Assembly: GCF_000002985.6 (NCBI RefSeq)
Contig: NC_003284.9
Span: 1,674,001-1,738,000 of the forward strand
DNA: 64,000 nt
DNA from: Caenorhabditis elegans
Lineage: Eukaryota; Nematoda; Chromadorea; Rhabditida; Rhabditidae
Direction of reading: 5' to 3'
Part shown: positions 157-59,447 of the stretch, piece by piece
How the letters are laid out: every line of letters starts with the position of its first letter
Position numbering within the stretch: position 1 is the first letter of the stretch
Notes under the pieces: model-generated
The model's input: only the letters and a program-made list of their open reading frames with translations
Database searches by the model: none
What the model was told of the DNA's origin: nothing
Position numbers and translations under genes: made by a program

Positions 157-2496
157 TTTGAAGATCTGAAAGCTTTATAACTTGAAGCTAATAAGCACAA
201 AATTATTGATTATTGAGATAATGCAAGATAAGGATAGGAAAAAGTATTCTGCTGACATTTCAACATTGATAAGAAAAGACTGAAAATTATTTAAGCTCCT
301 GCTCTTGTAAGGATAATTGTTAATTGGAAAATTGTCTAAAATGGTATTGACCAGAAAGAGAGAATAATATTTTAAAATTTCCCAAAACTACTACAGAACA
401 GAAACAATATGCTGTTCAAAAATTTAAATTTCTAAAACGGAATTCAAAAAAAAAAGTCATCTAGAAAGTATTCCAACTGTGAATATTGGTTTTCTTAAAT
501 AAACTTTTTTGGAAAATTGAACACTGATATTCCATTAACACCATTTTTAATTTGAACACAAGAATTCGAATTCAAAATTATATTTTTATTCAAAAAATGA
601 TAGGAAAAGTTGAGCAGGATAGGATACATTACTGGATTTGTATTTCTCGAAAGTTAAATTTTATAATAAAAATTGAACTCTTTTTAAAAAAATATAATGA
701 CTATATCTGAAAGTTAGAAATGTCTGGGATGATCAAAAAGTTTCATTTTAGTTACGGTATTGAACAAATTATAAATAAAACGGAAAATGAATAAAAATTA
801 AAGAAAAGACTGACTGATTTTTCTTTGCAAATCGTTTTATTCTTCTCACAAAATGCTCCATTTTTGTGTAACAAATCCCCGCCTCTTGAATAATGCTCCA
901 TGTTGACCACACCCCTCCTTCCCGAATCAATCGATATGTGCTCATCCGGTTGGTGCTCCTATCCCATAGTCGTAAAAGGTGCAAGGTCCTATCTGATTGG
1001 AAGTGTGGAGGTGTTTAAGAATTGATGAGAATGACAGATAACAATGACAATTCTTGAGAGCAACATGGTGAGCAGCTGGTATAAATTAAGAAAACTACGG
1101 TACAACTGTCAACTTGAACAAACTATGAAATTGGTTCAGATCTTAACGCAAAGTACAGCGAAAATAAAAACTACTGGGAAACACTGAAATTATGAAAATC
1201 AGAAAGACTATGGCCACGTAGCCAAAATTTTTTTTTTTTTTGTTCTAGGAGTACCCTTTCCTATTATTCTAAGACAGTGGAACGAACACTGAATTCCCAT
1301 TTAAGGCTGGAAGGACCTAGGGGGTGGGGGTCGAACTTGTGACCTTGTGATTGCAAGCAGCGCGCATAGGCACTGAGCCATGCACCCCCCGATAATGTCA
1401 GTTACTAATGGAATATATGAAATCGATCGCCGGAGAAGCTGCTCGGCAACTCGTAGTCACTTCTCAACCAACTTTAGCCACTTTTTGACTGCCATTAGAT
1501 TTCAACCACTTTCCAACAAACTTTGAGCACTTCTTAACCAACTTTGGCCAATTTTTGCCAACTCTCATCAAGTCAGGTGTTAAAAGCGTCAAAACACTGC
1601 TAAAATTGACCAACTTTAACCAACTTTTGCCACTTCTGTAAATGGCATTTAGAAAATGGCTAAAGTTAGTTGAGAAGCGGCGCCGATTTGAGGAGTGCTT
1701 CTGAAGTGTGAAACGAGTGTATATCTGTGTGAACTGATAAAATTTCATGTAAAGTTTAACTTTAATATTAGGGTGACCGAAAAAGACATGATCCGAGTTG
1801 GCCAGTTATCTTGTCTGAACATGATTTCAATTATTATAATTTTTACATCCAAACTATGTATGACTTTCCGCTTTGTTGGATAGTTAAATATTGAACATTT
1901 TTGTCGTCTTTTTTTCTGAAAAATTCATGTTTTTTGTTGAATATGGCCAATTCAGTCAAACATTTTGATATTCTTATATAGTTTTTTCTGCGTTGAACTT
2001 CAGGCTTCCCAAGTCATGCCACCAGCTCTTTTTATTGTTGTTCACAACCGTTTGTAGGTGCATGTTCACCTTTCTAATTAGATAGTACCTTGCACCTTTT
2101 ACGACTATGGCAGAAGACCACGAGTTGAGCACCAGTGAATATCGATTACTTACTCCAAACTGAAGTTTCTGACAAATGGAAATCTGCTTGTTTCCAAGAG
2201 AACTGCAATGCACAACCATTTATCATATAACACTGGAAAATGAAAATTAGAATGAGCAAAACTTCTAAACGGGGGAATGTGAGATTTTTCAGTTAGAGTT
2301 AGTGGAAGGAAGGGGCTCTAAATAACAATATACTCAATATAGGTTGACATTAAATACATTATCTACAAACAAAATGATTCTATACAAATATTCACATATA
2401 ACGATAAAATTTGATTTTAATCGCCATTGTAATATATTACATTCACAAATGAAACAATTATATACAAATATTTACATGTAAAGATAGTATTCAATT
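157..2496. other. Gene-poor stretch with repeat remnants
   Basis: Mostly AT-rich non-coding sequence. It holds a minus-strand tRNA-derived SINE (separate entry). A shared segment of about 24 bp (CCATAGTCGTAAAAGGTGCA...) occurs near 966-989 on the plus strand and again near 2086-2112 in reverse orientation, so these are pieces of one duplicated sequence. A tract near 1450-1690 repeats variants of CAACTTTAGCCAACTTTTGCC. I see no convincing exon besides the edge gene. Confidence 0.5.
1229..1447 (-). repeat. tRNA-derived SINE-like element, uninterrupted copy
   Basis: Read on the minus strand, the element runs from a leader (GCAGCTTCTCCGGCGATCGA) through GGGGGGTGCATGGCTCAGTG, which resembles a polymerase III A box, to AAGTTCGACCCCCACC, which resembles a B box, and ends in an A-rich tail (T12 at about 1229-1240 on the plus strand). 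A second copy lies at 6826-7939 on the plus strand, split by a hAT-type insertion. In this copy the corresponding target site is empty (GTTACTAA on plus at 1401-1408). Confidence 0.65.
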
Positions 2497-4107
2497 TTAA
2501 TCGGAATTGGAACGTTTTTTGATCGAGAACTTGTCAACTGGATCGTCTTCATCAGGCTCATCATTTTTTCCAAAAGTAACCGTGAACTTCGCATTGGCTG
2601 GAGTGAAATAATCAAATGCTTGCTCGTCTTCCTCTTCATTAGCGACAAAGATAAGTCCAAAAACATTCGCAACACTTGGTAGGTCCATGACTCTGCTAGT
2701 GATATCAGCGCTTATGAAATCGGAAGATTCATCAATCATCTGAAAATAAGACTTTTGCAAATCTGGGAACTTTGCCTTTTAATGTGAAGTGGCGCACTTC
2801 TAAGAAGTCTAAAACTGAAGAAGTTGGTTGATTGGAAACTGGGCATGTCTACTTATTTTGGAGGAAGTTCAAAAATTGGGATTTGTCATCATTTCTCGTT
2901 TTTTTTTTCAATTTTTTCTTTAGTAAATATTTCTGAATTATAGACAATTTTGGATTTCTTGAAGCGAAATCCCAATCCCTTCTACATCATCTTCAATATT
3001 CACATAAACTCACGTCTCGAAGTTTCACAGCGTCTTCTTCGGTGAACTCCCGTAGCACGACGTCGAATAATTTAAAATGGAAGAAGCTTCCAATTGGGAC
3101 ATCCAAACTGAAGCCTCTACCAAAAAACCTCTCAGCCATCTTCCATTGGTCCATGCTTGAAAGATGCTCACAATGCTCGAGGGTTTCAAGTTCCGCGCGA
3201 TCGAAAGTGTAGGGATCGATATTGAGTGATTCCAATTTTCCAGCAGGGAAGATCTCCAATAGTGAGGCATAATCGCTGATCGATACTTGAAGTGCATCGA
3301 AGTCTTCTACCTCAATGCTTCTCGTTGACTTGAGCATCTTAGTGATATCCGTGAAGCATTTCGTGTACAAATCTTTTTCCTCGATACTGAAATCGATAAT
3401 GAGACTCTGCAGTATCACTCTTCGGTTTTCCAACACCAATTTCAAGTCATTGTGGCACAACTGAACGGCATCGCCTCCTTGAATGAATTTATTCGATGGT
3501 TCCAACTTCGGCTCTGTGTCGTCATACTGATCGACACAGGAAACTTTGCATCCTCCATTTACCGGTTGGTAAGTGATTTTGTATCCGTCGTACTCGATCC
3601 TTGAAAAATTATTTTCATCCGAACCATTAACCGAATAATTGTGAATGATGTTAAAATCCTCGAGATCAACTTCCGGGATTCTCACGACATCGCGGAACCC
3701 TGTGCATACTTTTGCGAGAGCCAATCTGCAATTCATATTTTATTATTTATTCAACTTTTTTTCAAAACTCTCTTACGTGTCAATGAAATCAACCCTGTCG
3801 ACGATGAAATGAATCATATTGAGTGGGAGAGCATACATAGTCGATTTTGAATCGAGACTGAAAGATTTAAAAATTTATAATTTTAGGTTGATGTTTAAAC
3901 CAATTTTTACCTTTTATCATGGTCCAAATTATCATTCACGTTGGAGAAATGATAGTACCAGTAGTCGAACTCCTCTTGTGGAATAGCGTCCTTTCCAACC
4001 TTCCTACAGAAGTTCTCATAGGCCTTTGAAAGTCGAGTCTTATCGAGTGCTTCGTAGAGAATGCATGCTCGAATGATTTGGTCGTTTTTGCGCAAAGAAG
4101 CCGACAT
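2497..4107 (-). CDS. F-box A family protein (HTH_48-like + F-box + FTH/DUF38)
   Basis: Four exons: 4107-3911, 3857-3777, 3725-3014 and 2739-2497. Every junction is GT-AG and phase-consistent, giving 410 aa. Residues 1-66 (MSASLRKNDQIIRACILYEA...) match the Mos1-type HTH_48 segment seen at the N-terminus of some nematode FBXA proteins. Residues about 70-105 (YALPLNMIHFIVDRVDFIDT + LALAKVCTGFRDVV) are the F-box. The large exon is the FTH/DUF38 domain with its typical ending (EHLSSMDQWKMAERF, then HFKLFDVVLREFTEEDAVKLRD). F-box proteins of this group are thought to recruit substrates to SCF ubiquitin ligases. The C-terminus is unusually acidic then basic (KNDEPDEDDPVDKF...KKRSNSD). An acceptor (TTTTCAG) 12 bp upstream of the ATG suggests trans-splicing or a 5' UTR intron. 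No coding break is seen. Confidence 0.85.
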
Positions 4108-4590
4108 TTGAGGAATTGTCTGAAAAACAATACAATTGAATAACAGTAAACTGGGAATTATTTTAATAATTAGAGTTACTAAGAAACGAGCAGATAATGA
4201 GATTCCATACAATTAAGTATTTCAAAAGTATGAAAAAAAAACAACTTTTTAAAAAGAGCAAAAACAAAGAAGATTGGATGAAGAATCATCGCCCAAAAAC
4301 AAATGAAAATTTTGATTAAAAAGGAGAAAAATGGAGAAAAATACTTGTAAAAATACAAATGCAAATCGATTGCGAAACAAGGGAAGAGAATGCGTGGACA
4401 CCAGAACACTTGCCGCTGTGAATGTAGGATGGCGCACCGCGGTCTGTTCAATAGAGCGCACATGCGCATTTACTCGGCCGCGGCCACGATGAACGGTCAT
4501 GATCCAATAGTTTTCAGAAACAATGATTATTTGTCTGGATTTGTTTGAATGAGGAGTATCGGTTTGTAATTTTTCATTTTTCGAAATATA

Positions 4591-5527
4591 CAGGGTGGTC
4601 CATAATTATGGCGACCTGCTACACGCGTGCAAGAACTTGATTTCTGGGGTTACCCTGTTACGAAAGTTTTAAAATTTGATTATTTAAAAAAAGTTCACAA
4701 TATTTACTGTCGTTCACGTCAATTTCCATACAACATGCTTCAACTTTGAAAGTAGTGAGAGCCTTACAACATCGGTAGTCTATAATTTTCCTCCATTTTA
4801 TAGGAGGTCTAGCGCCCGACGTCTCCTGCTGCGCTCATAGGATCAAGCAACTAGTTTCTATGTTTTAAATAATTATCAAGACTTCCGACACTCAAAATAG
4901 CAAAATCCGAGACGATAGACATATTTTGAGCCAACTTATGTTCGGATTTAGGTCGTTTTTTGCCCTCTAATAACAGTGCAAACAGTCCGTTGCAAAAAAA
5001 ATTGCCCAAACATTCTGTATTCTGTGGAATATATCGAAATATTGAAAACCAAATTATCATTTTAAGCTAAGACAAATTAAAACTGGACACATTCGCATTT
5101 TCAACATGAATGAGCGTTGGTAAGGAAGAAAAATCACAAAACTTGGGGGAGCTTGCTTTTCTTGACTTTATCAATTTTCACAAGATGCCACTTCCGTCAC
5201 CGGACACCAATCTCAAAAATTATTTGTGAAAAGCTTTGTTGTATCAAGGGTATTCTTAATATATAATCAAAATAATAAATCACTCAAAGTATCTCATTTA
5301 AAAATCACCAATAAGCTAAATCGAGCCTACTTGTGCGCTACGGCCATTCGGATTTTTGAGTGTCTTGTGTTCTGTGCGGATGTAGGTGGTGATAACTATC
5401 AAGTATTATATGTCGTTAAGTTTGTTTTTTTCTAACCAATAAAATGTGTATATTCACTTCTTTTGCTCGCTGTCCAAAAAAAAGTTACAGTGCCCCAAAG
5501 TGGTCGCCATAATTATGGACCACCCTG
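4591..5527. mobile_element. Tc1/mariner-type MITE, TIR CAGGGTGGTCCATAATTATG
   Basis: The two ends are inverted copies of CAGGGTGGTCCATAATTATG followed by GCGACC. The left end follows TA. The right flank reads TG, so the TA target duplication is decayed or mutated. The 937-bp interior has no long transposase frame. A related end pair occurs at 60118-60963, and a 30-bp end-to-end remnant at 30512-30541. Confidence 0.75.
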
Positions 5528-6041
5528 TGAAAGTTTTAGTTTCAATTTGGAGAGTGTTGAGTTTTCAACTCATTGGAAAACGATTTTAAATGTTTAAAGT
5601 TGTAGTTAATAAAGTGTTCAAAACCACACGAATGGTGCCAGAATGACCGAATATAATAATGTAAAACTTTTCACAAAAAAAGTTTGAAAGTTGTCAAAAA
5701 ATGACAGTTACTCAGTTGATAAATTGGAATTGCTGGTAAAGCCAACCGACAGCCGACCGACAAATTTTCGTCTGATAGAAAATTTATAGGATAGTAAAAA
5801 TTTTAGCAGAGCTCGCTGTACCAGCTGAAAGCCGAAAAAATCAGTCAGCCGCACACTCCTATTCAATTTTTTTTTTTGTTTGTTTTAAGTTCAAATTCCA
5901 CTCGGATTTCAATGGTTACTTAACTGTTATTTTACGTTCTCGGTGAAAACATTGTAAATGAGAAGCAAGAATGAGATACCATTGAATGAAAAACAAAAAA
6001 TTAAAACAAAAAAGTGAGCAATAAGTGTTGTATATTTACGT

Positions 6042-6623
6042 ATCATGATAAAAAATTCAAAAAAATTTTCTAGATTTTATATGATTTTTTTGAAAATTGC
6101 AAAAATCTCAGTTTTCCCCTAATTCCTATTTGAATTTCCGCCAATTGAATTCGTTCGCTGGAGCACACTTGCATTATTTTTATTAATTTATTATATTGTT
6201 TCTCATTATTTCACTGATTTTCTTCATTCTTTGTGTATTTTTATCGGAAAAAGAGAGAAAAATTCAAGATAAATGCAAATTATTTATTTAAAAATCACTG
6301 AAAATGGGTAAAACTGTAAAATTATGAGTTCCGACGATAGCAAGCCTGAAATTAGCTTATTTCACAGTTTCACCCATTCTCAGTTATTTTTAAATAAATA
6401 ATTTGCATTTATCTTCTCTCTTGTTTTCCGATAAAAATACACAAAGAATGAAGAAAATCAGTGTAATAATGAGAAAAAATAAAATAAATTAATAAAAATA
6501 ATGCAAGTGCGCTCCAGCGAACGAATTCATTCGGCGGAAATTCGAATAGGAATTAGAGGAAAACTGAGATTTTTGCAATTTTCAAAAAATCATATGAAAT
6601 CTAGAAAATTTTTTATCATGATA
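6042..6623. repeat. Foldback element, arms about 280 bp
   Basis: The sequence ATCATGATAAAAAATT...TTTTCTAG near 6042-6071 returns in reverse complement at 6601-6622, and the arms stay alignable inward to about 6326 and 6359. The spacer is about 31 bp (TTCCGACGATAGCAAGCCTG...). Arms are diverged by scattered substitutions and small indels, so this is old. Confidence 0.75.
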
Positions 6624-6825
6624 TTCGGTCATTGTGGTAACATAGGCGTGTTTTAAAACAATTTCCCCATTTCGAATTTGAACTCATTATAAATACTTGC
6701 TTGGCAGTTTGGGAATTTTGGTTACAACGCATATAGAGACTTTGGAAAAGTCTCAATATTTTATAAGAAAAGCCACTCTAGAGAGATCAATTGAAAATAA
6801 AAAATAAAAAAGATCCTTTGTATGC

Positions 6826-7939
6826 TGCTTGCAGCTTCTCCGGCGATCGATTTCATATAATTCATTAGTGACTAGGGGTGGCAAGAGTGCGACCTAGGTC
6901 GCTAGGTCGCTGTTTTCATTTAGGTCGCATTGCGACCTGCGACCTAGCGACCTGCGACCTAGCGATCTGGGTTGCATTGCGACCTGCGACCTAGCGACCT
7001 GGGTCGCATTGCGACCTGCGACCTAGCGACCTAGGTCGCATTGCGACCTGAATTACCGACATTTTGTTCTCTTTCGGTTTTGATTCACTTGAGTTGTTAA
7101 AATCCGTATAACTCGAAAACTGCATTGCGACCTGAATTACCGACAATTTTTATACTAACAAATTGCTACAAATCATTTATTTTACATTGTTTTCGATTTC
7201 TCATCCATAAGACACCTTGTCGAAAAAAGTTAGAACAGCCGACATCCGCCGGATTTGCTGCTTTTTTCTACGTTTTTAATTCGAAAAGTGGAAAATGAAA
7301 TTTTAGAAACAACAAAAACCACAAAAACGTGAACTTTTTGAAAAAATTTGCTGAAATGCATGGTTTTATTTGTAGAAATGAATTCTTTGTTCCGTACTTT
7401 TGAAAAAAAACTACGCATAAACTTATAAAATCTTAATAGAGAAAATGTTAGTGGAATATATCATACATATTCTGCAATCTTTAGTTTTCGAGTTATACGG
7501 ATTTTAACAACTCAAGTGAATCAAAACCGAAAGAGAACAAAATGTCGGTAATTCAGGTCGCGATGCGACCTAGGTCGCTAGGTCGCAGGTCGCAAAGCGA
7601 CCCAGGTCGCTAGGTCGCAGGTCGCAAAGCGACCCAGGTCGCTAGGTCGCAGGTCGCAATGCGACCTAGGTCGCGATGCGACCTAACCCTCTAGGTCGCA
7701 GGTCGACCTAGGTCGACCTATAGCCACCCCTATTAGTGACTCATGCTTCCGGGGGGTGCATGGCTCAGTGCCTATGCGCGCTGCTTGCAATCACAAGGTC
7801 ACAAGTTCGACCCCCACCTCCTAGGTCCTTCCAGCCTTAAATGGGAATTCAGTGTTCGTTCCACTGTCTTACAGCTTACATACGGCATTTATCCAGGCAA
7901 GACCTGTAGAAAAAAACCAAAAAAAAAAAAAAAAAAAAA
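6826..7939 (+). repeat. tRNA-derived SINE-like element split by a hAT MITE
   Basis: The leader GCAGCTTCTCCGGCGATCGA is at about 6832-6851 and the body resumes after the insertion with GGGGGGTGCATGGCTCAGTG at about 7751. A-box-like TGGCTCAGTGCC lies at 7761-7772, B-box-like sequence at 7797-7815 (TTCGACCCCC), and an A-rich tail at about 7910-7939. It is the same family as the element at 1229-1447. Confidence 0.65.
6873..7732. mobile_element. hAT-type MITE with 8-bp target duplication and GCGACCTAGGTCG repeats
   Basis: Ends are TAGGGGTGGC and GCCACCCCTA. They are flanked by the direct repeat TTAGTGAC at 6865-6872 and 7733-7740, an 8-bp duplication as expected for hAT transposons. The subterminal 150-200 bp on each side are tandem self-complementary units built from GCGACCTAGGTCGC. 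The inner arms (about 7057-7121 and 7481-7546) are inverted copies of each other. No transposase is encoded. Confidence 0.85.
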
Positions 7940-8760
7940 TTTTGCCACGTGGGGCAACCTGGCAGTATTTAATGATTTCATTTTGGTATTGAAACATGAG
8001 ACAGTCTAGAAAATTAATTGGCAGAAGTTATCGACCACAGTCCTCAAGATTTTCATTTGATCCCACGTGGCAAACTGTTTGAGTTTTCTTCATTTTTTCT
8101 TTGTGTCATAATTTGAAATTTTACTTGCCACATTTTCAGACATTTTTCCGTAAAGAAAATTGGCTGCTCACTTGGAAACGCTGAAATTAGTCTAAAAATC
8201 GATAATTCAGTATTAATTTTAACTTACTTTACTGAAACATTACTGAAAAATGTATGAAACTGTGAAAAATTAAAGTTTTAAGTTTTAAATCAAAGAAAAT
8301 ATTAAGAAAAATGTCAAAGATCAGGTCAATAATTTGCGCTGGAATTGAAAAATAATTCGGCCCTTTTTTTTTGCAAAATTGAAAAAAATCATAAAATTTC
8401 AAAGAAAATGTTCGGAATTTTTTTACAGTTTTATTCGATATTTACATTGAAACTCTATTTTGTCATTAAGGTACAAAAAACCCACAAACGCTACTCCACC
8501 TTTAAACTAACAAGTACACGGAACCAAAGATTTTTCCTTATTTTTCTTCTTCTCGTGTTTTATTCAGTGATTATCTTTCCGGTCACCAATATTCCAGAGA
8601 ATTAACTATCAATATCCGACTTTTTACTCAACTGTTCCTCAAACCTCCAATACTCTTGAAAAACAGCCGGTACCATACAAACGTTTTGTGTTGTTTTGGT
8701 AATACCCCTGCCGCATTTTAACTGTGTTTTTGCCGCGCGCATGCATTCCCCTGACCGTTT

Positions 8761-13046: not shown

Positions 13047-13119
13047 CATCCGAAGCCTAAGCCTACGCCAAGGCCTAAGCCAAATCATAGGCCTACGCAT
13101 AGGCCTAAGCCTAAGCCTG
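13047..13119 (+). repeat. Interstitial telomere-like repeats (GCCTAA units)
   Basis: Degenerate tandem GCCTAA units, the complement of the nematode telomere repeat TTAGGC: CCTAAGCCTACGCCAAGGCC and further units such as AGGCCTAAGCCTAAGCC. The tract ends one base before the first base of the left arm of palindrome 1 (13121). Confidence 0.8.
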
Positions 13120-13539
13120 ATGAAATAAAACAGTATAGTTTCATTTAAATGAAACACCAGAACCATCAAAAACACTTGATTTTTTTTCAAATTTTTTTTA
13201 AACTAAAATATTTTTAAAGTTCGAAGGAAAACTGTTTAGCATCTTTTTCTTTTTGTGTGTCACTCTACATTAATATAAAATTTTATTGCAGTCCGCTACA
13301 CACTTTTTCATTGTTTTTGTTTCTCTGCTCCTCTACTTTCTTATCAAAATTTTTTCCCGGAGGTATCATTTGGTCTTCCTGCGGCGGCTTGTGTGGCTGG
13401 CACCACCATTTTTTTCTGGATTAAAACAAATTAAAAAAATTTATGTATTGTATGTGTGGTGAGTTTTAAAGTTATATTAGTTTCAAGAAGCTAATTTTCA
13501 TTACTTTCAGAAATTTAATTTCTGCTATCCGCACCCCGA

Positions 13540-14123
13540 ATGTCTACAAAAAATCTTCTGACTCAAGATGGTAAATTGGTGAGTTTTTGTATCAAAAAAG
13601 TTTCGAAAACCTTCAGAAATTAATTTCAGAGTAAGAATCGGCAAGTCGAGGAGAAAAATATCTTTAATGCAAATCCCACATTGTAAGTGCTTTTCTCGAA
13701 AATCTATAATAACATGGAATAAGGTTATGGAATAATGTATACATTAGATACATAGTAGCGTCCTATAAAAATACCAAACTGCCAAAAAATATTAAAAATT
13801 TTGAAACTTCGGTCTAATTAAAAGATATCAAGCAGATAAACGCTTAAGATTAGCCCAAAACTGAAACATTTCAATTTTGAACAATCGTTAGCTAATTAAA
13901 AACTACAAGCATTAAACCGACTCCAAAATACCATTAAAAAAGCTCACGAGAATTGCGCCAGTAGCCTTCTTGGATCATTTCCAAGTAGGAGCCTATGTCA
14001 TAATAATACTATATTTTCAGAGTGAATAAAATTGTCTGCGACCTCGAATCATTCTGAGACTTTTGCGAAGTCAACAAGGACATGAACATTTATGATAATT
14101 TCGACGGAATGGCATTTGACTGA
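13540..14123 (+). pseudogene. Small three-exon gene copy 1 with in-frame TGA
   Basis: Exons 13540-13578, 13630-13682 and 14021-14123 have GT-AG junctions and agree in phase. The peptide starts MSTKNLLTQDGKL, continues SKNRQVEEKNIFNANP and reaches a TGA at 14055-14057. The same frame then continues (DFCEVNKDMNIYDNFDGMAFD) to a second TGA at 14121-14123. The reading is therefore either a 42-aa protein with an accidental open tail or a 64-residue frame with a nonsense codon. The acidic tail looks like coding sequence, so I favour a disabled copy. Function unknown. The mirrored copy is at 15350-15933. Confidence 0.5.
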
Positions 14124-15349
14124 TAATTGTTTATATAACTGTTTCATTTTTCATATCCTTTATTATATTTCCCCTCCCCCCTTTATTCAATGTTCCCATT
14201 TTTCAACTATTCCTTTACTTTCCACTTTCTGAATTTCTTGTTTCATGTTTCAAATCCCGATTCTCATTGCCTAATCCCACAAGTTTTAAAATAAACTTGT
14301 CACAATAATAAACCCCCAAACAGTATTCAATTCTCGCTGCTCTCGTGCTATTCTTGTGCTATTCTTGGATTTTCTGAATCCAACACGTTTCAGGTCTTTT
14401 GGTCTGCTGTTCTGTTCAAAAACAGTTTGAAGCAATCTCTATTATTACGGTACACTCATTCTAGGACTCATTGGTAGTGAAGTTCTTGAGGGAAACGACA
14501 CCCAACTAGTGATAGCCGCCCCAGTTATTTTGTCGAAATGGAGTAAATATTTAGAGCCAAGTTTTCCAGATTTAAGTAATTTTACCAAGATGTTTAGATA
14601 AAATCATTAGAAATCCTAAAAACCGAAAGATTTGTGAATTGCAATTTTCTCTATTGTACTCTAGAGCTTTGGAGCTAATTTACTTATTGATTCTTTGACT
14701 TGGAGCTAGAAACTCTCGCCCTTCCGTTCTCATTTGTCTCTTTCTCTGCCCTCTCTATAGTTTCCTACAAATTAGGCAGGGCACCTTACTCTACGTGGTG
14801 TACGACCTTTCTCTGTTTGCGTCTTTTGTTATTCCCTTTCCCCGCATTTCCTTTTCTGTAGTGTTCTAGCGGCCCAGTGCACGGGCCGCCGACAAATGGA
14901 CCATTGCTCATCTTGGCTCTAAATATTTACTCCATTTCGACAAAATAACTGGGGCGGCTATCACTAGTTGGGTGTCGTTTCCCTCAAGAACTTCACTACC
15001 AATGAGTCCTAGAATGAGTGTACCGTAATAATAGAGATTGCTTCAAACTGTTTTTGAACAGAACAGCAGACCAAAAGACCTGAAACGTGTTGGATTCAGA
15101 AAATCCAAGAATAGCACAAGAATAGCACGAGAGCAGCGAGAATTGAATACTGTTTGGGGGTTTATTATTGTGACAAGTTTATTTTAAAACTTGTGGGATT
15201 AGGCAATGAGAATCGGGATTTGAAACATGAAACAAGAAATTCAGAAAGTGGAAAGTAAAGGAATAGTTGAAAAATGGGAACATTGAATAAAGGGGGGAGG
15301 GGAAATATAATAAAGGATATGAAAAATGAAACAGTTATATAAACAATTA

Positions 15350-15933
15350 TCAGTCAAATGCCATTCCGTCGAAATTATCATAAATGTTCATGTCCTTGTT
15401 GACTTCGCAAAAGTCTCAGAATGATTCGAGGTCGCAGACAATTTTATTCACTCTGAAAATATAGTATTATTATGACATAGGCTCCTACTTGGAAATGATC
15501 CAAGAAGGCTACTGGCGCAATTCTCGTGAGCTTTTTTAATGGTATTTTGGAGTCGGTTTAATGCTTGTAGTTTTTAATTAGCTAACGATTGTTCAAAATT
15601 GAAATGTTTCAGTTTTGGGCTAATCTTAAGCGTTTATCTGCTTGATATCTTTTAATTAGACCGAAGTTTCAAAATTTTTAATATTTTTTGGCAGTTTGGT
15701 ATTTTTATAGGACGCTACTATGTATCTAATGTATACATTATTCCATAACCTTATTCCATGTTATTATAGATTTTCGAGAAAAGCACTTACAATGTGGGAT
15801 TTGCATTAAAGCTATTTTTCTCCTCGACTTGCCGATTCTTACTCTGAAATTAATTTCTGAAGGTTTTCGAAACTTTTTTGATACAAAAACTCACCAATTT
15901 ACCATCTTGAGTCAGAAGATTTTTTGTAGACAT
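15350..15933 (-). pseudogene. Small three-exon gene copy 2 (mirror image) with the same TGA
   Basis: Mirror copy of the fragment at 13540-14123: exons 15933-15895, 15843-15791 and 15452-15350. The in-frame TGA is shared (15418-15416). One codon differs: ATC (Ile) in copy 1 is AGC (Ser) here. Because the nonsense codon is in both copies it predates the duplication. Confidence 0.5.
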
Positions 15934-16711
15934 TCGGGGTGCGGATAGCAGAAATTAAATTTCTGAAAGTAATGAAAATTAGCTTCTTGAAACTAATATA
16001 ACTTTAAAACTCACCACACATACAATACATAAATTTTTTTAATTTGTTTTAATCCAGAAAAAAATGGTGGTGCCAGCCACACAAGCCGCCGCAGGAAGAC
16101 CAAATGATACCTCCGGGAAAAAATTTTGATAAGAAAGTAGAGGAGCAGAGAAACAAAAACAATGAAAAAGTGTGTAGCGGACTGCAATAAAATTTTATAT
16201 TAATGTAGAGTGACACACAAAAAGAAAAAGATGCTAAACAGTTTTCCTTCGAACTTTAAAAATATTTTAGTTTAAAAAAAATTTGAAAAAAAATCAAGTG
16301 TTTTTGATGGTTCTGGTGTTTCATTTAAATGAAACTATACTGTTTTATTTCAGAAAACTTTGTTAAAGCTTTAAAAAGTGCGCAAAATTGCTGGAATTTT
16401 CTGGTAAAATTTCCAAATTTGACCACTTATTTGCGACCCGAAAATGAAGATTTTTTCTGAGTTATCTTTTTTTGCATACTTTGGTAGCTTATTTCACATT
16501 ATTTTGTAGATTAAGGTACATTTAATTCAAAAATGTCATCTTCGGACCGTTGCAAAAATGACCAAAATTGAGGATTTTAGCGAAAATCAGCCCAATTTTT
16601 TTGAAATCTAAAACCGCCAAAAACATTTTTGAAAAAAAATTTAAGTTCAATAATTTCCTCAATATGAGCACATTTTGACTAAATGCGCTTTTTAGTTTCA
16701 GTACTTCTTAC

Positions 16712-16917
16712 CTATCTCACTGCAGATTTTTGCATCCAGGTGGGTCACGGGTGCCCCAGGCACTTCCAACAGGCGACAGAGCTCAACGAAATTGAGCTCG
16801 TTGTCTTCATCCGCGTCAGCTTCGTAGAGCATCTCTACCAATTCCTTGACCAGGTGCTTGGTGAAGCTTGGACAGAAACGGAGTCCAAAAAAACAATGAT
16901 TCCAATCAGATAAGGTT
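16712..16917 (-). pseudogene. EF-hand exon, copy 1
   Basis: A single exon bounded by an acceptor (TTTTTAG) and a donor (GTAAGAAG). The peptide contains LVEMLYEADADEDNELNFVEL, whose loop D-A-D-E-D-N-E-L-N-F-V-E places acidic residues at loop positions 1, 3, 5, 7 and 12, as in a calcium-binding EF-hand. Neither a start codon exon nor a following exon was found nearby, so it is an isolated gene fragment. Mirror copy at 18967-19172. Confidence 0.5.
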
Positions 16918-17082
16918 CTAAAAATCAAATTTTTATAATAAACCATTGAAAATATGAAATGAGAATAAATATATTTCAACTGAAAAAAAAACATGAAACT
17001 GATGGAGTACTTTATTAAACAAAGTAAATATTTATAGCCGTACAAGCAAAAAAAAAGCAGTGCAAAAAGAAAAAAAAGAAAC

Positions 17083-17145
17083 TTCCCATGCCGGGAATCG
17101 AACCCGGGCCGCGTGGGTGAAAACCACGAATCCTAACCACTCACA
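17083..17145 (-). pseudogene. 5'-truncated tRNA-Glu(TTC), copy 1
   Basis: The sequence from AGTGGTTAGGATTCGTGG through the TTTTCAC anticodon loop (anticodon TTC), the variable region and the T arm (GGGTTCGATTCCC) to the 3' acceptor half CATGGGA is typical of tRNA-Glu. The 5' acceptor strand and first half of the D arm (expected to begin TCCCAT) are replaced by the end of another repeat (CGCAAATCAACTGTG). It cannot form an acceptor stem. Confidence 0.85.
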
Positions 17146-17149
17146 GTTG

Positions 17150-17440
17150 ATTTGCGGTTCGCGAATTATTCGTTAAAAAATTCTTCGCGTGCTCATTATT
17201 CGAGTACCCGCTAACATGTGTATTGTACGTGTGTTATACGCGTATCCCGAACACACATGTACAATTCGCGAATAAATCGCGTATACCGAAGGATTTTTTC
17301 GGGATTCGTGTACAAATAACGTATAATTGATGTATTTTCCGATAATTTGTTCGGGATTCGCGAATAAATTGAAAATTTCGAGGAAATTGTTCATGAATAG
17401 CAATTTTTCCCATAACATTGTTCTTCAATATTATATTCAT
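17150..17440. repeat. CG-containing palindromic repeat ending CGCAAATCAACTGTG
   Basis: AT-rich sequence with many CGCGTAT/ATACGCG, ATTCGCGAAT and GAATAATTCGCGAACC motifs. Its end, GCGAACCGCAAATCAACTGT, recurs at 18717-18740 (mirror copy) and at 24305-24340, where the flank is not a tRNA. It is a dispersed repeat family whose terminus replaced the 5' part of the tRNA-Glu. Confidence 0.5.
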
Positions 17441-17491
17441 AGGATGAGTTTATTAGTAAGAAAAACATAACAACGAAATAATAATGGCACA

Positions 17492-18392
17492 GGCAAGGCT
17501 CGATGGAGGCATTTCAGAAGGCACACAAAGAAATTAAATGTGTGAAAGAACAACAAAAAAAAACAATTTGTAACAAGGGAAATAGAAAAATATGTAAAAA
17601 ATTATGAAAAAAATTGTATTAAAACCTCTAATCCATCATATCATCCGGCTCCTCATTTTCCTTTTCACGTCGATTTTTTTCTTGAACAGGTGCTTCGAAG
17701 ACATCGATTTCCATATCTTCATCCAAACGTCATTGGTTGCTGATGGGAGTTGCAGCCTTGTTCTGTAATCAAAAGTTCGAGCAATATTCATTAAAAAAAG
17801 TGTTTTTTTCCTTCTAAATTAACTTGATTATTTTTTCTGCCATTATTTTAACGTATTCTTTCCGATTTTAATTCAAAACTTTTAAATCCTCGTACTTTTA
17901 ATTAGTTTTTATTAATCTAGACTTGTTTCTTTATAAAAACAGAAACTACGGTGTGCAAGTACGCAAACACCGCGGCGGCAATTTGCACGCACTGACTTTT
18001 GCGTTCTGACATTTTAGTTTTTATTTATTTTTTCTCTCTTTTTTTTGTAAATTTCTTGATCATTTCCGTTTTTTTTTTCTTTTTTTTTCAAGAAATCGAT
18101 TTACACAAAATTTTGTTGCAGCACGAAGGAGCCGAGTTTAGGAACCGCGGTTAGTTCGAGCACAAGACCACTCAGGTTCTCTCCGCCAAAATTTCAGGTT
18201 TTGGTGTTGAATTCGGGATAGGAAAAGGACACCAGGCTCAACAATCGTGAGTTTTTTATTTCAAAAATCATAAATTGAAAAAAAAAATTACCAACCTCAC
18301 TAGTTCTCCGCAATTTTCCTTTTTGAGCTCCATTTGCATCCATTTTCCCGCCTCTTCACTCTTGTTTGCGCCTTTTTCTTGATTGTAGCGAT
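17492..18392 (-). pseudogene. Palindrome 2 spacer with broken minus-strand gene fragments
   Basis: A first exon candidate (18345-18298) reads MDANGAQKGKLRRTSE and is followed by a GT donor. A terminal exon candidate (about 17760-17630) reads NKAATPISNQ, then an in-frame TGA, then RLDEDMEIDVFEAPVQEKN and an acidic end EEPDDMMD with TAG. The acidic peptide looks genuinely coding, so the internal TGA marks a pseudogene. The middle exon could not be placed in one frame. Family not recognised. Confidence 0.35.
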
Positions 18393-18738
18393 TGTGCCAT
18401 TATTATTTCGTTGTTATGTTTTTCTTACTAATAAACTCATCCTATGAATATAATATTGAAGAACAATGTTATGGGAAAAATTGCTATTCATGAACAATTT
18501 CCTCGAAATTTTCAATTTATTCGCGAATCCCGAACAAATTATCGGAAAATACATCAATTATACGTTATTTGTACACGAATCCCGAAAAAATCCTTCGGTA
18601 TACGCGATTTATTCGCGAATTGTACATGTGTGTTCGGGATACGCGTATAACACACGTACAATACACATGTTAGCGGGTACTCGAATAATGAGCACGCGAA
18701 GAATTTTTTAACGAATAATTCGCGAACCGCAAATCAAC

Positions 18739-18801
18739 TGTGAGTGGTTAGGATTCGTGGTTTTCACCCACGCGGCCCGGGTTCGATTCCCGGCATGGGA
18801 A
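18739..18801 (+). pseudogene. 5'-truncated tRNA-Glu(TTC), copy 2
   Basis: Exact mirror of the fragment at 17083-17145, on the plus strand. Anticodon loop, variable region and T arm are intact, while the 5' acceptor strand is missing at the same base. The truncation therefore happened before the inverted duplication. Confidence 0.85.
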
Positions 18802-18966
18802 GTTTCTTTTTTTTCTTTTTGCACTGCTTTTTTTTTGCTTGTACGGCTATAAATATTTACTTTGTTTAATAAAGTACTCCATCAGTTTCATGTTTTTTTT
18901 TCAGTTGAAATATATTTATTCTCATTTCATATTTTCAATGGTTTATTATAAAAATTTGATTTTTAG

Positions 18967-19172
18967 AACCTTATCTGATTGGAATCATTGTTTTTTTGGA
19001 CTCCGTTTCTGTCCAAGCTTCACCAAGCACCTGGTCAAGGAATTGGTAGAGATGCTCTACGAAGCTGACGCGGATGAAGACAACGAGCTCAATTTCGTTG
19101 AGCTCTGTCGCCTGTTGGAAGTGCCTGGGGCACCCGTGACCCACCTGGATGCAAAAATCTGCAGTGAGATAG
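18967..19172 (+). pseudogene. EF-hand exon, copy 2
   Basis: Mirror copy of 16712-16917, preceded by TTTTTAG and followed by GTAAGAAG. It encodes FTKHLVKELVEMLYEADADE and the rest of one EF-hand loop plus a short tail (VPGAPVTHLDAKICSEI). No other exon of the parent gene is visible next to it. Confidence 0.5.
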
Positions 19173-20778
19173 GTAAGAAGTACTGAAACTAAAAAGCGCA
19201 TTTAGTCAAAATGTGCTCATATTGAGGAAATTATTGAACTTAAATTTTTTTTCAAAAATGTTTTTGGCGGTTTTAGATTTCAAAAAAATTGGGCTGATTT
19301 TCGCTAAAATCCTCAATTTTGGTCATTTTTGCAACGGTCCGAAGATGACATTTTTGAATTAAATGTACCTTAATCTACAAAATAATGTGAAATAAGCTAC
19401 CAAAGTATGCAAAAAAAGATAACTCAGAAAAAATCTTCATTTTCGGGTCGCAAATAAGTGGTCAAATTTGGAAATTTTACCAGAAAATTCCAGCAATTTT
19501 GCGCACTTTTTAAAGCTTTAACAAAGTTTTCTGAAATAAAACAGTATAGTTTCATTTAAATGAAACACCAGAACCATCAAAAACACTTGATTTTTTTTCA
19601 AATTTTTTTTAAACTAAAATATTTTTAAAGTTCGAAGGAAAACTGTTTAGCATCTTTTTCTTTTTGTGTGTCACTCTACATTAATATAAAATTTTATTGC
19701 AGTCCGCTACACACTTTTTCATTGTTTTTGTTTCTCTGCTCCTCTACTTTCTTATCAAAATTTTTTCCCGGAGGTATCATTTGGTCTTCCTGCGGCGGCT
19801 TGTGTGGCTGGCACCACCATTTTTTTCTGGATTAAAACAAATTAAAAAAATTTATGTATTGTATGTGTGGTGAGTTTTAAAGTTATATTAGTTTCAAGAA
19901 GCTAATTTTCATTACTTTCAGAAATTTAATTTCTGCTATCCGCACCCCGAATGTCTTTTCATTCTTCCATGTAGATTTAACTGGTACAATATCCGGCGTC
20001 AATGCCACAAACTTTTGCAGAGCTGTGGTGGGTTCGTTGATTACTCGAAATGCGATTTCCCGTCTGATGCTTGTATGAAGTAGTACCCTAAATCATACAT
20101 TTCACAAACTTCATTTTTTAAAGATTGAAAACTGACTTAGTCGACGCGTTCTGAACAAAACTGCGTGTCGTACGGCTACTGTATCCACAAAGAGCAAATT
20201 GATAAAAGCTTTCGAATGAAAATGTTGAGAGTGATCCAGTATTACCGAACAACTCATTAATTTCTGGCAGATGAAAAAGTACTTCCTAAATTTGTATGCT
20301 TTTGAAAAGTACTAAAAATCGATAAACATACATGAGCTTTGATGGAAAGATACTCTACGTTAGCTTCGGATAGAAACCATGCTGCACCGGCTGCCATTTG
20401 CTGCTCAAACAAACAAGAGGCTTTCGAGTTCGTATACATCTCATTTCCCAGCATTCCTAGTCCTACAATAACAACCCGGGCCTCAGGAGAAAGAGTGTCG
20501 AAGCTCAGAGCAACTAAGCAGATGACTATTCGAAAGAACTGAAATTAAATTTTATATAAGTTATATTCCTAGCCTTCTGTTACATTAGTCTTGTCCGTTC
20601 CATTCCGACATGCTTCCACGTTTGTAAAATTTGAATGTAGTACAACTTTTCGAAATGCTTCTTTGAGGACTCCTTTATTGTTCGAAAAAGGAGGTGATCT
20701 AGGCTTGATCTTTTTGAATTCAGACAACAACAACTCTGTAAGCAAAACATATATTTTCGCGTTTTGAATTATTCAGAT

Positions 20779-20987
20779 CAGGGGTGGACGGCAAACCATT
20801 TTGTCCGGCAAATGGGTAAATTGCCGGAATTCTAATATCCGGCAAATCGGCAAATGGGTAAATTGCCGGAATTCTAATATCCGGCAAATCGGCAAATGGG
20901 TAAATTGCCGGAATTGAAATTTCCGGCAAATCGGCAAATGGGCAAATTGTCGAATTTGTCGGCAAATCAATTTACCGCGCACCCCTG
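20779..20987. mobile_element. hAT-type MITE inside a transposase-gene intron
   Basis: Ends are CAGGGGTGG and CACCCCTG, flanked by the exact 8-bp direct repeat ATTCAGAT at 20771-20778 and 20988-20995. The interior is three tandem units of CGGCAAATGGGTAAATTGCC plus GGAATTCTAATATC. It lies in the intron 20736-21000 of the transposase gene. Confidence 0.9.
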
Positions 20988-22011
20988 ATTCAGATATCAC
21001 CTTTTCTAATGAATGTATAGATTCCCTCTCCCAAGTTGTGCAAAATATCGATTGGTGTATTGTACGGGAGAACGTGGGGAACAATTTTTGCTGGAATTGG
21101 ACCAAAACCATGCACACCCTGCTCTGAATCCACGATTGTTTCATATCCAGGGCGTTCCTCACGGCGTTTTCGATCACCAAATTTGTACAAAGTTCCTGGC
21201 GACATACAAAAAAAACATGACTCTGCCGACTGATGTGCCATGAAACCAAAGAAAGCCCGCTTTGCCTGAAATCGCCGTTTTTAATTTAGAATATAGGTAG
21301 TAATTGACACTACGAACACAGTTGTCATCAAAGAAAGATACTACTTACGGGCTGATCGGCTGAGCATGGTCGAATGTGGCAAGTGAATGATGTATTTCTG
21401 ACTTTTCCAGTATGTGATTCTACATCAGATAGTATGAACGGAATAAGTGCATTCCACAGAGTTGTAGTTGGATTTTCACTACACTCTACAATTCCACCTA
21501 GTACAATGTTTGTAGACTTCTGCATCAGTCCAGTTGGCAGATCAAAGATGATGTAACTGACTGGCCAAAGCTTCCTAGAAATTAAAATACTCAAATGAAT
21601 ATTTTTTCTAAATGCGAAACCAACTTCTTATTTCCAGAAATGCGCACTCCGTCAATCGATACGACCAAGGACAGACGAAGACGATTCGGAGATTCAGTTT
21701 CTCGGAAACTAGAGAAAAATGGACTAGCCAGGTTATGTTCAAGATTTCGATCATTTTTCAGCTGTTCCCGTAGCTCCAGAATGTCATCCATGTAAGTTTC
21801 GACGAGCTCTACAATTTGGGTAAACGATCCAACCCGGACAAAGGAGGCAACAGGACCACCACAATGTTTGCTGAATTGGTAATTTTTGCATTTTCAAAAA
21901 TTTCCAAATAACCAACTTCTTGCCTCGAGAAATTTTCATTTTCAAAACGTTATCATTGAAACATTTGGGATTTTCAATTTCCAAAAAACTTTTAAATTAT
22001 TTTCCTTATTT

Positions 22012-22430
22012 CTTCGAAATTTTTGGATGTTCGATTTTTAAAAAATTCTAAGTTTTTTTGGATTTTCAAATACTAAAAATTCTTCGAAATTTTTGGATGT
22101 TCGATTTTTTAAAATTCTAAAAATTATTTGGATTTTCAAATACTAAAAATCTTCGAAATTTTTGGATGTTCGATTTTTTAAAATTCTAAAAATTATTTGG
22201 ATTTTCAAATACTAAAAATTCTTCGAAATTTTTGAATGTTCGATTTTTAAACAATTTTAAAAATTGTTTGGATTTTCAAATACTAAAAATTCTTCGAAAT
22301 TTTTGGATGTTCGATTTTTAAAAAATTCTAAAAATTATTTGGATTCTCAAATACTAAAAATTCTTCGAAATTTTTGAATGTTCGATTTTTAAAAAATTCT
22401 AAGTTTTTTTGGATATTTGATTTTCAAAAA
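22012..22430. repeat. Intronic minisatellite, about 70-bp unit x 6
   Basis: CTTCGAAATTTTTGGATGTT starts recur at about 22012, 22082, 22151, 22221, 22292 and 22363, a period of 69-71 bp. The array fills the large intron between the two exons that together form the zinc knuckle of the transposase gene. Confidence 0.85.
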
Positions 22431-23174
22431 AAAAGGAATTTTTCAACGAAATTGTGAAATATCAAAGAGACTTTCAGATATTGTACTAATCTTCAAAATT
22501 TACCAAGGCAAGAAGTTGATTGATAAATAGAAATTACCATTTCTTAGAATTTTGTGCAACTTTTCCACATTTGTTGCAGAAATGATGTGTGGAAAAATTG
22601 TTTTTATTATATGTCCATATTGAATTTGCAGACTCGGCCACCGATTCATCGAGGGATAACAAAGACCGTTTGAATGCTAAATTTTTTTGAAATAAATAAA
22701 TTTTTTTGTTATTTTTAACCTAGATTTGAATAGCGTGACACACAAGCTGAAGCAACATGAAGAAGGGCTGGAGTTGAAGCATCTCTAAGCATTTGTCTCA
22801 TTTCTGAGAGTAACACTTTAAATTCATTTCCTAGGTTTTTTGCACGTACCGGAAGCTGCATCTTCGACGTCACCTGAATCACCAAATTCAAGTAATTCGT
22901 CCACTGGATAATCAATCTGGTCATCGTCTCCCATGTCCATTTCTTCAGCTCCATCACCAAGGTCATCGTCCAACATCATATCCTCAATGTCATTGATGTC
23001 ATTGATTCGTCTTCATCTGCATAGATCTGATTCGATGTCTCGTTTTCATTCACTGCCACATCATTTTCTGATTCTACAAAAAATTATTCTCAAAAATAGT
23101 GAACATGATCAGAAATATATACCTAATCTTTCTCGTCTATCCGGATCGAAGTCTCTGAAGCTGGTACGAGGCAT

Positions 23175-24673
23175 CCTTGTACACTTTAAAGTATACGGTA
23201 CTCTGATAAACTCCTACTATTTGCATATGTCAGTGATACTCAACGTGTTTAATATTATAACTTTCCCTTTCTACAGTGCAGAAAATTTTGGTTTGGATTT
23301 CAATGGGTTTTTTTTTTGAGAAGAAGGAACATTTGGATGAACGGGTCTCGACGCTCGTATTGAATTTTTAAATGATTTTTCAAGTATGCACCTTTAAGAT
23401 TACTGTACGGATTCGGCAAGAACTCTCGCATCTTGACATTTATTATTGTTTTATTATCTCTTGGTTTTCTTCTCTTCTCCCATTCATCGAAAATATAATA
23501 ACAATTATTCCGGGAAAGTGATGAAAACGAAAAGAATGAGAAAATCAAAATTTTGTTTTCTTTTCGAAGCTACAGTAATCCTAGCAAATTTTGCCATCGA
23601 CCGCTCGGCGAATTTGTCAATTTTTTGCACATCCCTGGTTCAGATTCAGAACTCGAAAATTTATCTATTTTTTTTCGAATTTTCCAGGTTTGCTGTCACC
23701 TTGAAAGTAGAATTTAGTTTTGATTTTTAAATTTTCAAAAAGGTTACTGTAGTTTCGAAAAAAAATTAATTAAAGGAATTCAAAAAGTTCTCACTGATTC
23801 TGTACAGTAATATCGAATCTTTAAAGGCACATAAAACATTTTTAAAGTTATTTTTTGGGAAAGTCTAGAAAATATTCTTTAACTGTATAATTTAGAAACT
23901 ATTGTACTAATTTTCTGAACTCTAATTAAGCAGGAATCCTCAAAAAGTGTGTTCCTTCTTCTTGGAAATCATTAAAAGGGGAACATTTTCCCAAAATCAT
24001 TGATTATCTCGACTATTTCTGCATAAACTTGAGAAAAAATACAATATTGACGATATTTTTGAACAAAAATAGGAAAAAATTACTTAAAAAACAAAAAAAT
24101 TACTTAAAAAAGGGCAAAAAATAATTAATAAAATAATTTATTGATTTGAATGACTCTCTTTCGTTATTCCTGATTAATTCGCGAATTATACGCGTATCCC
24201 GAAAATGGTCGCATTTTTTCGTTATACGCGTATTTTCAACGAATTTTTTTTGTGTCTCAAATATTCGTTTCGCGATACATGATTTATACGCGAATTGAAC
24301 GCGTATACGAATAATACGCGAACCGCAAATCAACTGTGACTAGACCACATGGGAGGACGGAGGAGCCAGTCTGATGGAGCTAGACGAGAGTGTGGAAGGT
24401 TGCAGGGAGAAGGCGGCATGGAGGAGAAATGTAGAGCAGGGCTGACATAAGGTCGGGAGCACTGCGAACTAGACCGCAATCAATATATTTTTTGCAAAAC
24501 CGTCCGCTACCGACTACCAGCTGACGGCAAATTAGCCGCATTTCAAAAAAAAACGGCTAACGGCTATTTCGGCTAATCGGGAACATATTCGGCTAACGGG
24601 AACTCGGCTGAATCGGCTATTAGCCGCCCACCCCTGGTCGCAACATAAGACCACCTGCATAAACGTGGCGTGT
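23175..24673. other. Intergenic stretch with repeat fragments
   Basis: Non-coding AT-rich sequence. 24100-24340 holds a dispersed CG-rich palindromic repeat with ATACGCG motifs, ending CGCAAATCAACTGTGA. 24437-24636 looks like a hAT-type MITE (CAGGGCTGAC ... CCACCCCTG) with an interior of GGCTAACGGCTATTTCGGCT units, but its flanks show no clear target duplication. Confidence 0.45.
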
Positions 24674-59300: not shown

Positions 59301-59447
59301 ATATAACCACAAAAAAAAATCTAAGAAAAAATCAAAACTGAGAAAAAACGACAAAACTTATTGACTGACCTAATAATTTTTTTTTAGATTAAAATTTCTA
59401 AAAATTTTAATCAGTTCCATATATTTCAGGCTTCAGTCCACGTCTAA
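53356..59447 (+). CDS. Dystroglycan-like type I membrane protein
   Basis: Exons: 53356-53505, 53572-53628, 54104-54214, 54261-54335, 54387-54446, 54510-54590, 54960 to about 55150 (3' end unresolved), 55812-56171, 57378-57792 and 59430-59447. A signal peptide (MRLLLLLITTVLVFLVYA) is followed by a Ser/Thr/Pro-rich acidic region with many N-glycosylation sites. A cadherin-like segment comes next (SVNGSDIWFYQTLPNELSG, then IPLVAGTSEYLVNN), then a SEA-like/dystroglycan domain (FLANAMNISSISILNIEY, MTIVSFHNNSKDSELC, DAFVLSMFPDYSV). One membrane helix (IVLYFIVLFGASYGLAMLFY) precedes a short basic tail ending ATDHSEASVHV. No PPxY dystrophin-binding motif is seen. The junction between exons 7 and 8 does not agree in phase with any donor I found, so an exon is missing or there is a break. 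Similarity is judged by domain order from memory. Confidence 0.6.
56985..57161 (+). repeat. Interstitial telomere repeats (TTAGGC) in intron 8
   Basis: Clean and degenerate TTAGGC units (AGGCTTAGGCTTAGGCTTAG and variants), interrupted by about 60 bp at 57065-57110. They lie in the intron 56172-57377 of the dystroglycan-like gene. Confidence 0.9.
57832..59373. mobile_element. Mariner-type foldback element in the last intron
   Basis: Ends TTAGGTCAGTCAATAAGTTT are inverted and flanked by TA (57830-57831 and 59374-59375). Almost the whole 1542 bp is one palindrome: arms about 57832-58580 and 58700-59373, for example CGAAGTTTTGTTTAACAAAT against its complement near 58810. The arms differ by scattered substitutions. 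No transposase frame is visible. Confidence 0.9.

Follow-up and report, generated by a model that had tools for sequence, protein, structure and literature searches.

Two overlapping palindromes at a Mirage-type transposon in a tRNA-Glu gene of the Caenorhabditis elegans X chromosome

Inverted duplications are common in rearranged genomes, and it is often difficult to reconstruct which templates were used and in what order. In the DUP-TRP/INV-DUP structure of human copy-number variants, the middle copy is inverted and template switching turns at two points. Maize Mu killer is described as a MuDR transposon that has lost part of its interior and carries one of its ends in inverted duplication, from which a read-through transcript could fold back (PMC3440606). 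The inverted repeats described by Zhao (2007) are paralogous gene pairs conserved across species, with kilobase-scale, ~100% identical arms and a short spacer (PMC1803023). Fusions in C. elegans telomerase mutants are reported to carry duplications and palindromes made by promiscuous DNA synthesis, some of it from interstitial telomere tracts (PMC9071541, PMC9097270, PMC4981268). Dada DNA transposons enter a specific place in tRNA and snRNA genes, each family in its own tRNA, with target duplications of 6–7 bp; part of the A box serves as one such target (PMC3706591). Here we analyse a locus that touches on each of these systems and lies within a 64-kb stretch of the X chromosome, the whole of which is referred to as the window (Table 1).

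Geometry and content of the palindromes

The two palindromes overlap in the 425-bp block A. The arms of palindrome 1, each of 1,441 bp, are identical at 1,440 positions, the sole mismatch being T at 13661 versus G (mirrored strand) at 15812; those of palindrome 2 are identical at 1,564 of 1,564. Their spacers, s1 and s2, measure 350 and 901 bp, respectively. The coordinates, arm lengths, spacer lengths and constant coordinate sums of the preliminary description proved exact, as did its near-identical arms without indels. Identity falls sharply past all four arm ends, where 4–8 of the following 20 bases agree. In ten Markov-1 random 64-kb sequences, exact inverted repeats reached no more than 16–20 bases, which excludes a chance origin of the arms.

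Table 1 Features of the locus (window positions)
Feature	Position	Strand	Remark
Degenerate telomere-repeat (GCCTAA/TTAGGC) tract; right edge is the outer end of palindrome 1 (J3)	13053..13120	+	
Palindrome 1 left arm (A'-B'), inverted copy of 14912-16352	13121..14561	-	
Spacer s1 of palindrome 1	14562..14911		Only itself matched in genome search
Block B of core	14912..15927	+	Small gene remnant, minus strand
Block A, common to both palindromes	15928..16352	+	Three identical copies
C0, host part of block C	16353..17141	+	EF-hand-like exon, tRNA-Glu 3' part
Mirage-type transposon left end (TE 1-348); inner part of palindrome 2 left arm	17142..17491	+	
"Spacer" s2, transposon interior (TE 349-1285)	17492..18392	+	
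Filler, inverted copy of 15928-17491; palindrome 2 right arm; replaces TE 1286-4070	18393..19956	-	
Remaining transposon (TE 4071-8372), DUF1258 transposase exons on minus strand	19957..24338	-	
Second copy of target duplication (ACT, 3 bp); 5' part of interrupted tRNA-Glu	24339..24354	-	

The locus had been called an inverted triplication, which holds for block A and fails for blocks B and C, each present in two copies; judged from the sequence, it consists of two inverted insertions that share 425 bp. A genome search (100.3 Mb, very common words being passed over) returned three matches to block A, all at this locus; s1 matched itself alone, and block B had only partial matches elsewhere (68–79%). 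Block B and the edge of A hold a minus-strand gene remnant of three exons, set by eye, with an in-frame TGA within the last. This last exon resembles a chromosome V locus, through which we sought the ancestral order on the left side; the match comprised the last exon and little beyond. Block C0 contains an EF-hand-like exon on the minus strand, inside 16701–16877, and the 3' part of the tRNA-Glu gene at 17083–17141. We followed splicing of the EF-hand exon into A and B by eye and found no open continuation, so that the exon gives no polarity. Within block C, the inner 350 bp represent a transposon end, and two short stretches resemble dispersed repeats.

A Mirage-type transposon and its lost interior

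The right part of the locus, 17142–24338, is a 7.2-kb Mirage-type (DUF1258) DNA transposon within a tRNA-Glu gene; DUF1258 corresponds to the Mirage group (PMC3985635). Four exons of this element scored above the cut-off for DUF1258 (X:1695074–1696632, about 21074–22632 in the window); matches in the window element were confined to this interval, and the palindrome arms had none. A second copy at X:16514406–16522778 (the X:16.5 copy) has four translated pieces that match PF06869 with E values of 2e-9 to 2e-39. The window element carries the exact 22-bp end on either side, and the terminal inverted repeats of the X:16.5 copy span 32 bp at 93.75% identity. Short target duplications of 2–3 bp, the 2-bp ones weak alone, flank five of five two-ended elements, the window element having 3 bp (ACT). 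When the flanks of 17142 and 24338 were joined, ARAGORN called a tRNA-Glu gene, which places the filler inside the element. Across the 64-kb window, neither ARAGORN nor Rfam called the interrupted gene in place, each finding one tRNA, the Arg gene.

Different tRNA genes host three of the five two-ended copies of the element. At the III:7470698 site, ARAGORN found no tRNA and Rfam gave no tRNA match (E 1). Mirage insertion in C. elegans tRNA genes was unreported among the literature matches listed, as judged from titles and abstract starts, which is not proof of absence.

The X:16.5 copy is collinear with window positions 17142–18392 and 19957–24339, the exceptions being small indels and a segment that measures 79 bp in that copy and 9 bp in the window. 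Where the window has the filler, the X:16.5 copy has 2,785 bp of transposon (TE 1286–4070); the filler itself consists of the inverted left 350 bp of the transposon and 1,214 bp of host flank. A 200-aa stop-to-stop frame spans the TE 4071 boundary in the X:16.5 copy and is cut at 19957 in the window, where it is fused to block A, indicating that the X:16.5 copy keeps the older state. The 901 bp had been taken for a plain spacer, but s2 is transposon, and together with the innermost 350 bp of block C it makes up the element's left 1,251 bp.

Origin of the two palindromes

The transposon, its insertion site, its lost interior, the inverted filler and the four joints can all be read directly. Two accounts in the preliminary description, two template switches and breakage-fusion, are ruled out by the outer flanks together with the X:16.5 copy. 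Had two switches produced forward-reverse-forward copies, C' would run on to the left of 13121 and B' to the right of 19956. The sequence left of 13121 is unlike C' (27/100 matching bases) and that right of 19956 is unlike B' (22/100), so two switches would not suffice; template switching stands as the likely cause, with four junctions needed. Breakage-fusion fails because the right arm is filler inside the transposon, which continues to the left and right of it. A scheme in which one fragment snapped back at its two ends and so made both arms at once was rejected by reasoning, as the 425-bp overlap would need the same strand to be both resected and template.

We give a probability of roughly 0.55 to a single recent event of zig-zag template-switching repair that made both palindromes. 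The Mirage-type transposon would have entered the tRNA-Glu gene first, and a break or stalled fork would later have arisen at the site, with repair synthesis reversing direction four times in all. Synthesis would have left TE 4071 for 15928, from which it would have proceeded rightwards for 1,564 nt and stopped 350 bp within the transposon's end. A turn at 18392 would have been followed by leftward copying of the 3.8-kb core to 14562, and a further turn at 14912 by rightward copying of 1,441 nt to 16352, before synthesis resumed at the telomere-repeat tract, at 13120. The outcome would be a core with inverted copies of its own interior on both sides and the loss of 2,785 bp of transposon. That there was one event, its direction, its youth and the choice of 13120/13121 over 16352/16353 as the novel joint are our inferences. 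Our best reading of the event's age, from an assumed mutation rate, is about 6x10^4 generations, with a wide interval. One event is favoured by the presence of two overlapping kilobase-scale palindromes of like age (0/1,564 and 1/1,441 mismatches). The near absence of visible microhomology at J1 and J2 (1 and 0 bp, by eye) counts against the template-switching account.

J3 (13120/13121) adjoins the edge of a TTAGGC-like tract; about 0.14% of window positions are no more than 5 bp away from an edge of this kind. In C. elegans telomerase mutants, about 5% of uncapped telomeres are reported to begin DNA synthesis at interstitial telomere tracts, producing fusion-point duplications (PMC9071541, citing Lowden 2011). 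With 1.7 Mb between it and the contig end, the locus is not close to a chromosome end, and 1,229 such tracts occur in the genome (PMC9071541), so the position of J3 may be chance.

The palindromes could instead stem from two separate events, faulty gap repair after a break in the transposon yielding the filler and a later, unrelated inverted duplication yielding the left palindrome. We regard this as possible though unlikely: each palindrome is self-standing with two joints, and Mu killer provides a known case of an internally deleted transposon with one end duplicated in inverse orientation (PMC3440606), but an overlap of 425 bp between kilobase-scale palindromes would require coincidence or a hotspot. 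The confinement of the single mismatch to the left pair fits separate events, although 0 and 1 mismatches are not meaningfully different. It is distinctly less probable that the palindromes are older and were kept identical by arm-to-arm gene conversion, and the "very recent" of the preliminary description is likely, with conversion of an older structure as the competing account. C. elegans gene-pair inverted repeats with arms up to 100% identical are reported to predate a species split (PMC1803023), and divergence from the X:16.5 copy is higher in s2 than in the arm's part of the transposon (54/893 versus 5/348; Fisher p 2.8e-4), which homogenisation of the arms would predict. However, the element's right end, outside the arms, is equally low (17/1,327), so low divergence is not special to the arms; identity runs right up to the four arm edges; and no function to preserve is evident in the arms, which contain a stop-bearing gene remnant, a truncated tRNA gene and transposon ends. 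Divergence within s2 peaks at 17592–18041 (7–9% per 150 bp), and the last short bin before the joint has 3/51 differences, leaving error-prone synthesis beside J1 unsupported though possible.

Large palindromes are hard to clone and assemble, which counts towards an artefact of the reference assembly or of cloning. Such an origin is very improbable here, as the unique s1, the one arm mismatch and joints inside a specific transposon deletion are unexpected from a collapsed or chimeric assembly. A fold-back transposon family with A, B and C as its long inverted repeats matches the locus in shape only and was rejected, with a negligible chance of being correct: in the genome search the arms were not dispersed in many copies, block A matching only here (3/3 matches), B elsewhere only in part and s1 nowhere else.

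Comparison with known systems

The X:16.5 copy still has the interior that the window element lacks, and thereby establishes which sequence was lost, which was copied and where the copy came from, so that a multi-switch event can be dated and put to the test in wild strains. In our view, the locus is a repair scar without selected function. It also offers a naturally occurring long-hairpin locus that includes a transposon end, in a worm that silences Mirage elements through its small-RNA machinery: in mut-16 mutants, MIRAGE mRNA is reported to be raised, and in prg-1 only ~1.2-fold (PMC7038979).

The locus resembles Mu killer in its internally deleted element and its inverted duplication of one end; any read-through transcript could likewise fold back. 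It differs in that each arm joins 350 bp from the transposon's end to 1.2 kb of host sequence and has no DUF1258 match, and in that the window element keeps its true right end. We consider it a long shot that an animal equivalent of Mu killer is at work here, with minus-strand read-through from the truncated transposase gene across both arms of palindrome 2 giving a 1.5-kb dsRNA. Were this so, dsRNA containing a Mirage end common to several elements could seed small RNAs that silence the family, and the host fragments in the arms would be silenced or edited as passengers. The repeats of Zhao (2007) share its kilobase-scale, nearly identical arms and short spacer, but are gene pairs, whereas the window arms are transposon and host fragments. 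As in some telomerase-mutant fusions, a joint adjoins an interstitial telomere tract; the locus, however, is in the interior of an X arm in the reference genome, with no fusion point. With DUP-TRP/INV-DUP it shares the inverted middle copy and the two turning points, but its outer copies are not collinear into the flanks, and explaining it takes four joints and a deletion of 2,785 bp. Finally, as with Dada, a DNA transposon sits at a specific place in tRNA genes, but this family has 2–3-bp target duplications, different tRNAs and a DUF1258 (Mirage group) protein.

Arms of the two palindromes

The repeat coordinates of the preliminary description were reproduced by both a repeat search and an independent script. 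The arms of the right palindrome (15928–17491 and 18393–19956) are identical at 1,564 of 1,564 positions and those of the left (13121–14561 and 14912–16352) at 1,440 of 1,441, the sole difference lying at 13661/15812. Block A, the 425 bp common to both palindromes, exists in three identical copies, and a genome search (100,286,401 bp in 7 contigs, the window being bases 1,674,001–1,738,000 of the sixth contig, with contigs one to six taken as chromosomes I–V and X) placed it at three sites, all at this locus and no other. Similarity is lost abruptly outside each of the four arm ends (4–8 of 20 bases match), and inverted repeats in random sequences of like composition (n=10) reached at most 20 bp. 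Both A–B copies carry a small three-exon gene remnant (13540–14123 and 15350–15933, exons assigned by eye), the last exon of which contains an in-frame TGA and resembles V:1017943–1018362; the single base that differs between the arms falls in this remnant and turns an Ile codon into Ser.

The interrupted transposon and its relatives

In the genome search, the 901-bp spacer of the right palindrome matched X:16,521,494–16,522,430 (89%) and the right flank matched X:16,516,394–16,518,708 (94%), with strand and order as in the window. These matches belong to a second transposon copy (X:16,514,406–16,522,778, 8,373 bp) that has inverted ends, carries DUF1258 (PF06869) on minus-strand frames, and matches window 17142–18393 and 19957–24339, except for small indels and one 79-bp stretch represented by 9 bp in the window. 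The available text of PMC3985635 treats DUF1258 as equivalent to the Mirage group, which is closely related to Transposase_21; the latter groups with CACTA. The window element has the same DUF1258 exons (around 21.07–22.63 kb) and interrupts a tRNA-Glu gene; its rejoined flanks are called as tRNA-Glu by ARAGORN with a 3-bp target duplication, ACT, so the insertion itself fixes where the element begins and ends, with no need of the second copy. Compared with that copy in 150-bp bins, the interior diverges by 7–9% at 17592–18041 and by 8% at 20742–20891, which overlaps a 42-bp tandem repeat; other bins diverge by 0–6%.

Where the second copy has 2,785 bp (element positions 1286–4070), the window instead has 18393–19956, an exact inverted copy of 15928–17491 made up of 350 bp from the left end of the element and 1,214 bp of adjoining host DNA. 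The host part contains a fragment of the tRNA gene as well as an exon resembling an EF-hand, whose Pfam E of 6e-4 falls short of the model's cut-off. In the second copy a 200-aa frame spans element position 4071 unbroken, whereas in the window it is severed there and joined to block A, indicating that the second copy keeps the older state. By eye, microhomology at the right-palindrome joints is 1 bp at J1 and 0 bp at J2.

A genome search for the 22-bp transposon end, allowing up to 2 mismatches, yielded 13 matches versus 0 for the reversed end used as a control. One of the 13 belongs to the inverted copy that fills 18393–19956, and the remaining 12 are spread over seven places, five of which have both ends. 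Three of these five elements interrupt tRNA genes (Glu, Phe and Met with a CAT anticodon, which we take to be initiator Met) at nearly the same place, in the A-box region; with the 2–3-bp target duplication counted, the cut lies 12–16 nt into the tRNA (for Phe, 12 by eye and 13 by the ARAGORN start). A fourth, at X:1,755,205, possibly lies in a tRNA-Arg remnant, as suggested by a 20-bp match to the window's tRNA-Arg (score 30 versus at most 23 in 500 shuffles; no ARAGORN call); at the fifth, III:7,470,698, ARAGORN called no tRNA. The single flank was examined at each of the one-ended places, V:8,688,466 and IV:11,219,613. With matches of at least 80 bp counted, the elements at X:1.755, III and IV:60708 resemble the window family mainly in their outer parts, over about 260 and 470 bp, and the V element does so over 104 and 469 bp; the first three also have short, weak interior matches (46–146 bp, 66–85%). 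Next to the second copy, at X:16522778–16524005, some 650 bp are directly duplicated (98.6% identity), and two tRNA-Phe genes are present.

Coordinates of the window transposon and of elements related to it or sharing its ends
Element	Coordinates	Interrupted gene	Ends
Mirage-type or end-sharing	X:1691142–1698338 (window 17142–24338)	tRNA-Glu	two-ended
Mirage-type or end-sharing	X:16514407–16522778	tRNA-Phe	two-ended
Mirage-type or end-sharing; also outer-end relative	IV:60708–66991	tRNA-Met	two-ended
Outer-end relative	X:1755205–1762504		two-ended
Outer-end relative	III:7470698–7476967		two-ended
Outer-end relative	V:8688466–8694633		second end not found

Age and assembly of the structure

The two transposon copies differ at 5/348, 54/893, 62/2,894 and 17/1,327 positions in four segments, so the palindromes look younger than the split between these copies. 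Taking 2.7e-9 mutations per site and generation, and assuming no gene conversion, 1 difference in 3,005 bp of arm corresponds to 6.2e4 generations (95% 1.6e3–3.4e5). In the available text, Zhao et al. 2007 (PMC1803023) argue for an active mechanism, perhaps gene conversion, that can hold such arms identical. Here such upkeep would fit the faster divergence of the spacer, but the arm edges are sharp and the arms consist of broken pieces, and we rate this explanation lower than recent origin.

The spacer of the left palindrome matched only itself in the genome search. The outer end of this palindrome adjoins a degenerate TTAGGC-type tract (13053–13118, plus two bases to the joint). In the window, 0.14% of positions fall no more than 5 bp from where a telomere-type tract of this kind ends, which multiplied over four joints gives about 0.5%; this rarity favours 13120/13121 as the novel joint over the alternative that the novel joint is 16352/16353 and the left copy is original. 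Elsewhere in the window, further degenerate telomere-repeat tracts cluster at 56957–57159, and 57830–59375 forms another large imperfect hairpin, in which inverted segments of 103, 65 and 202 bp match exactly around almost the same axis.

The two template switches proposed initially would give forward–reverse–forward copies with the outer ones collinear with the flanks, but the outer copies do not run on. Four joints are the smallest account, and one synthesis path that reverses repeatedly is able to produce them: starting from the right flank, synthesis would copy 15928 to 17491, then 18392 to 14562, then 14912 to 16352, before entering the left flank. A model in which the two ends of one fragment snap back at the same time was also considered; by reasoning, the 425-bp overlap rules it out. 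The available texts of PMC9071541, PMC9097270 and PMC4981268 describe duplications in C. elegans telomerase mutants that arose through DNA synthesis or template switching, in some cases starting at interstitial telomere tracts.

Possible function and comparison with Mu killer

No function of the locus is supported. Read-through of the transposase gene on the minus strand would pass through the two arms and might form a fold, and several AATAAA/ATTAAA words on that strand along the route make an early end of the transcript likely. In the available part of PMC7038979, MIRAGE mRNA is increased in mut-16 mutants but only about 1.2-fold in prg-1; the window element may itself be MIRAGE1. The likeness to Mu killer, as described in the accessible text of PMC3440606, is one of shape only: the window arms carry no DUF1258 match, and that text links Mu killer silencing with short antisense transcripts and not with the long hairpin.
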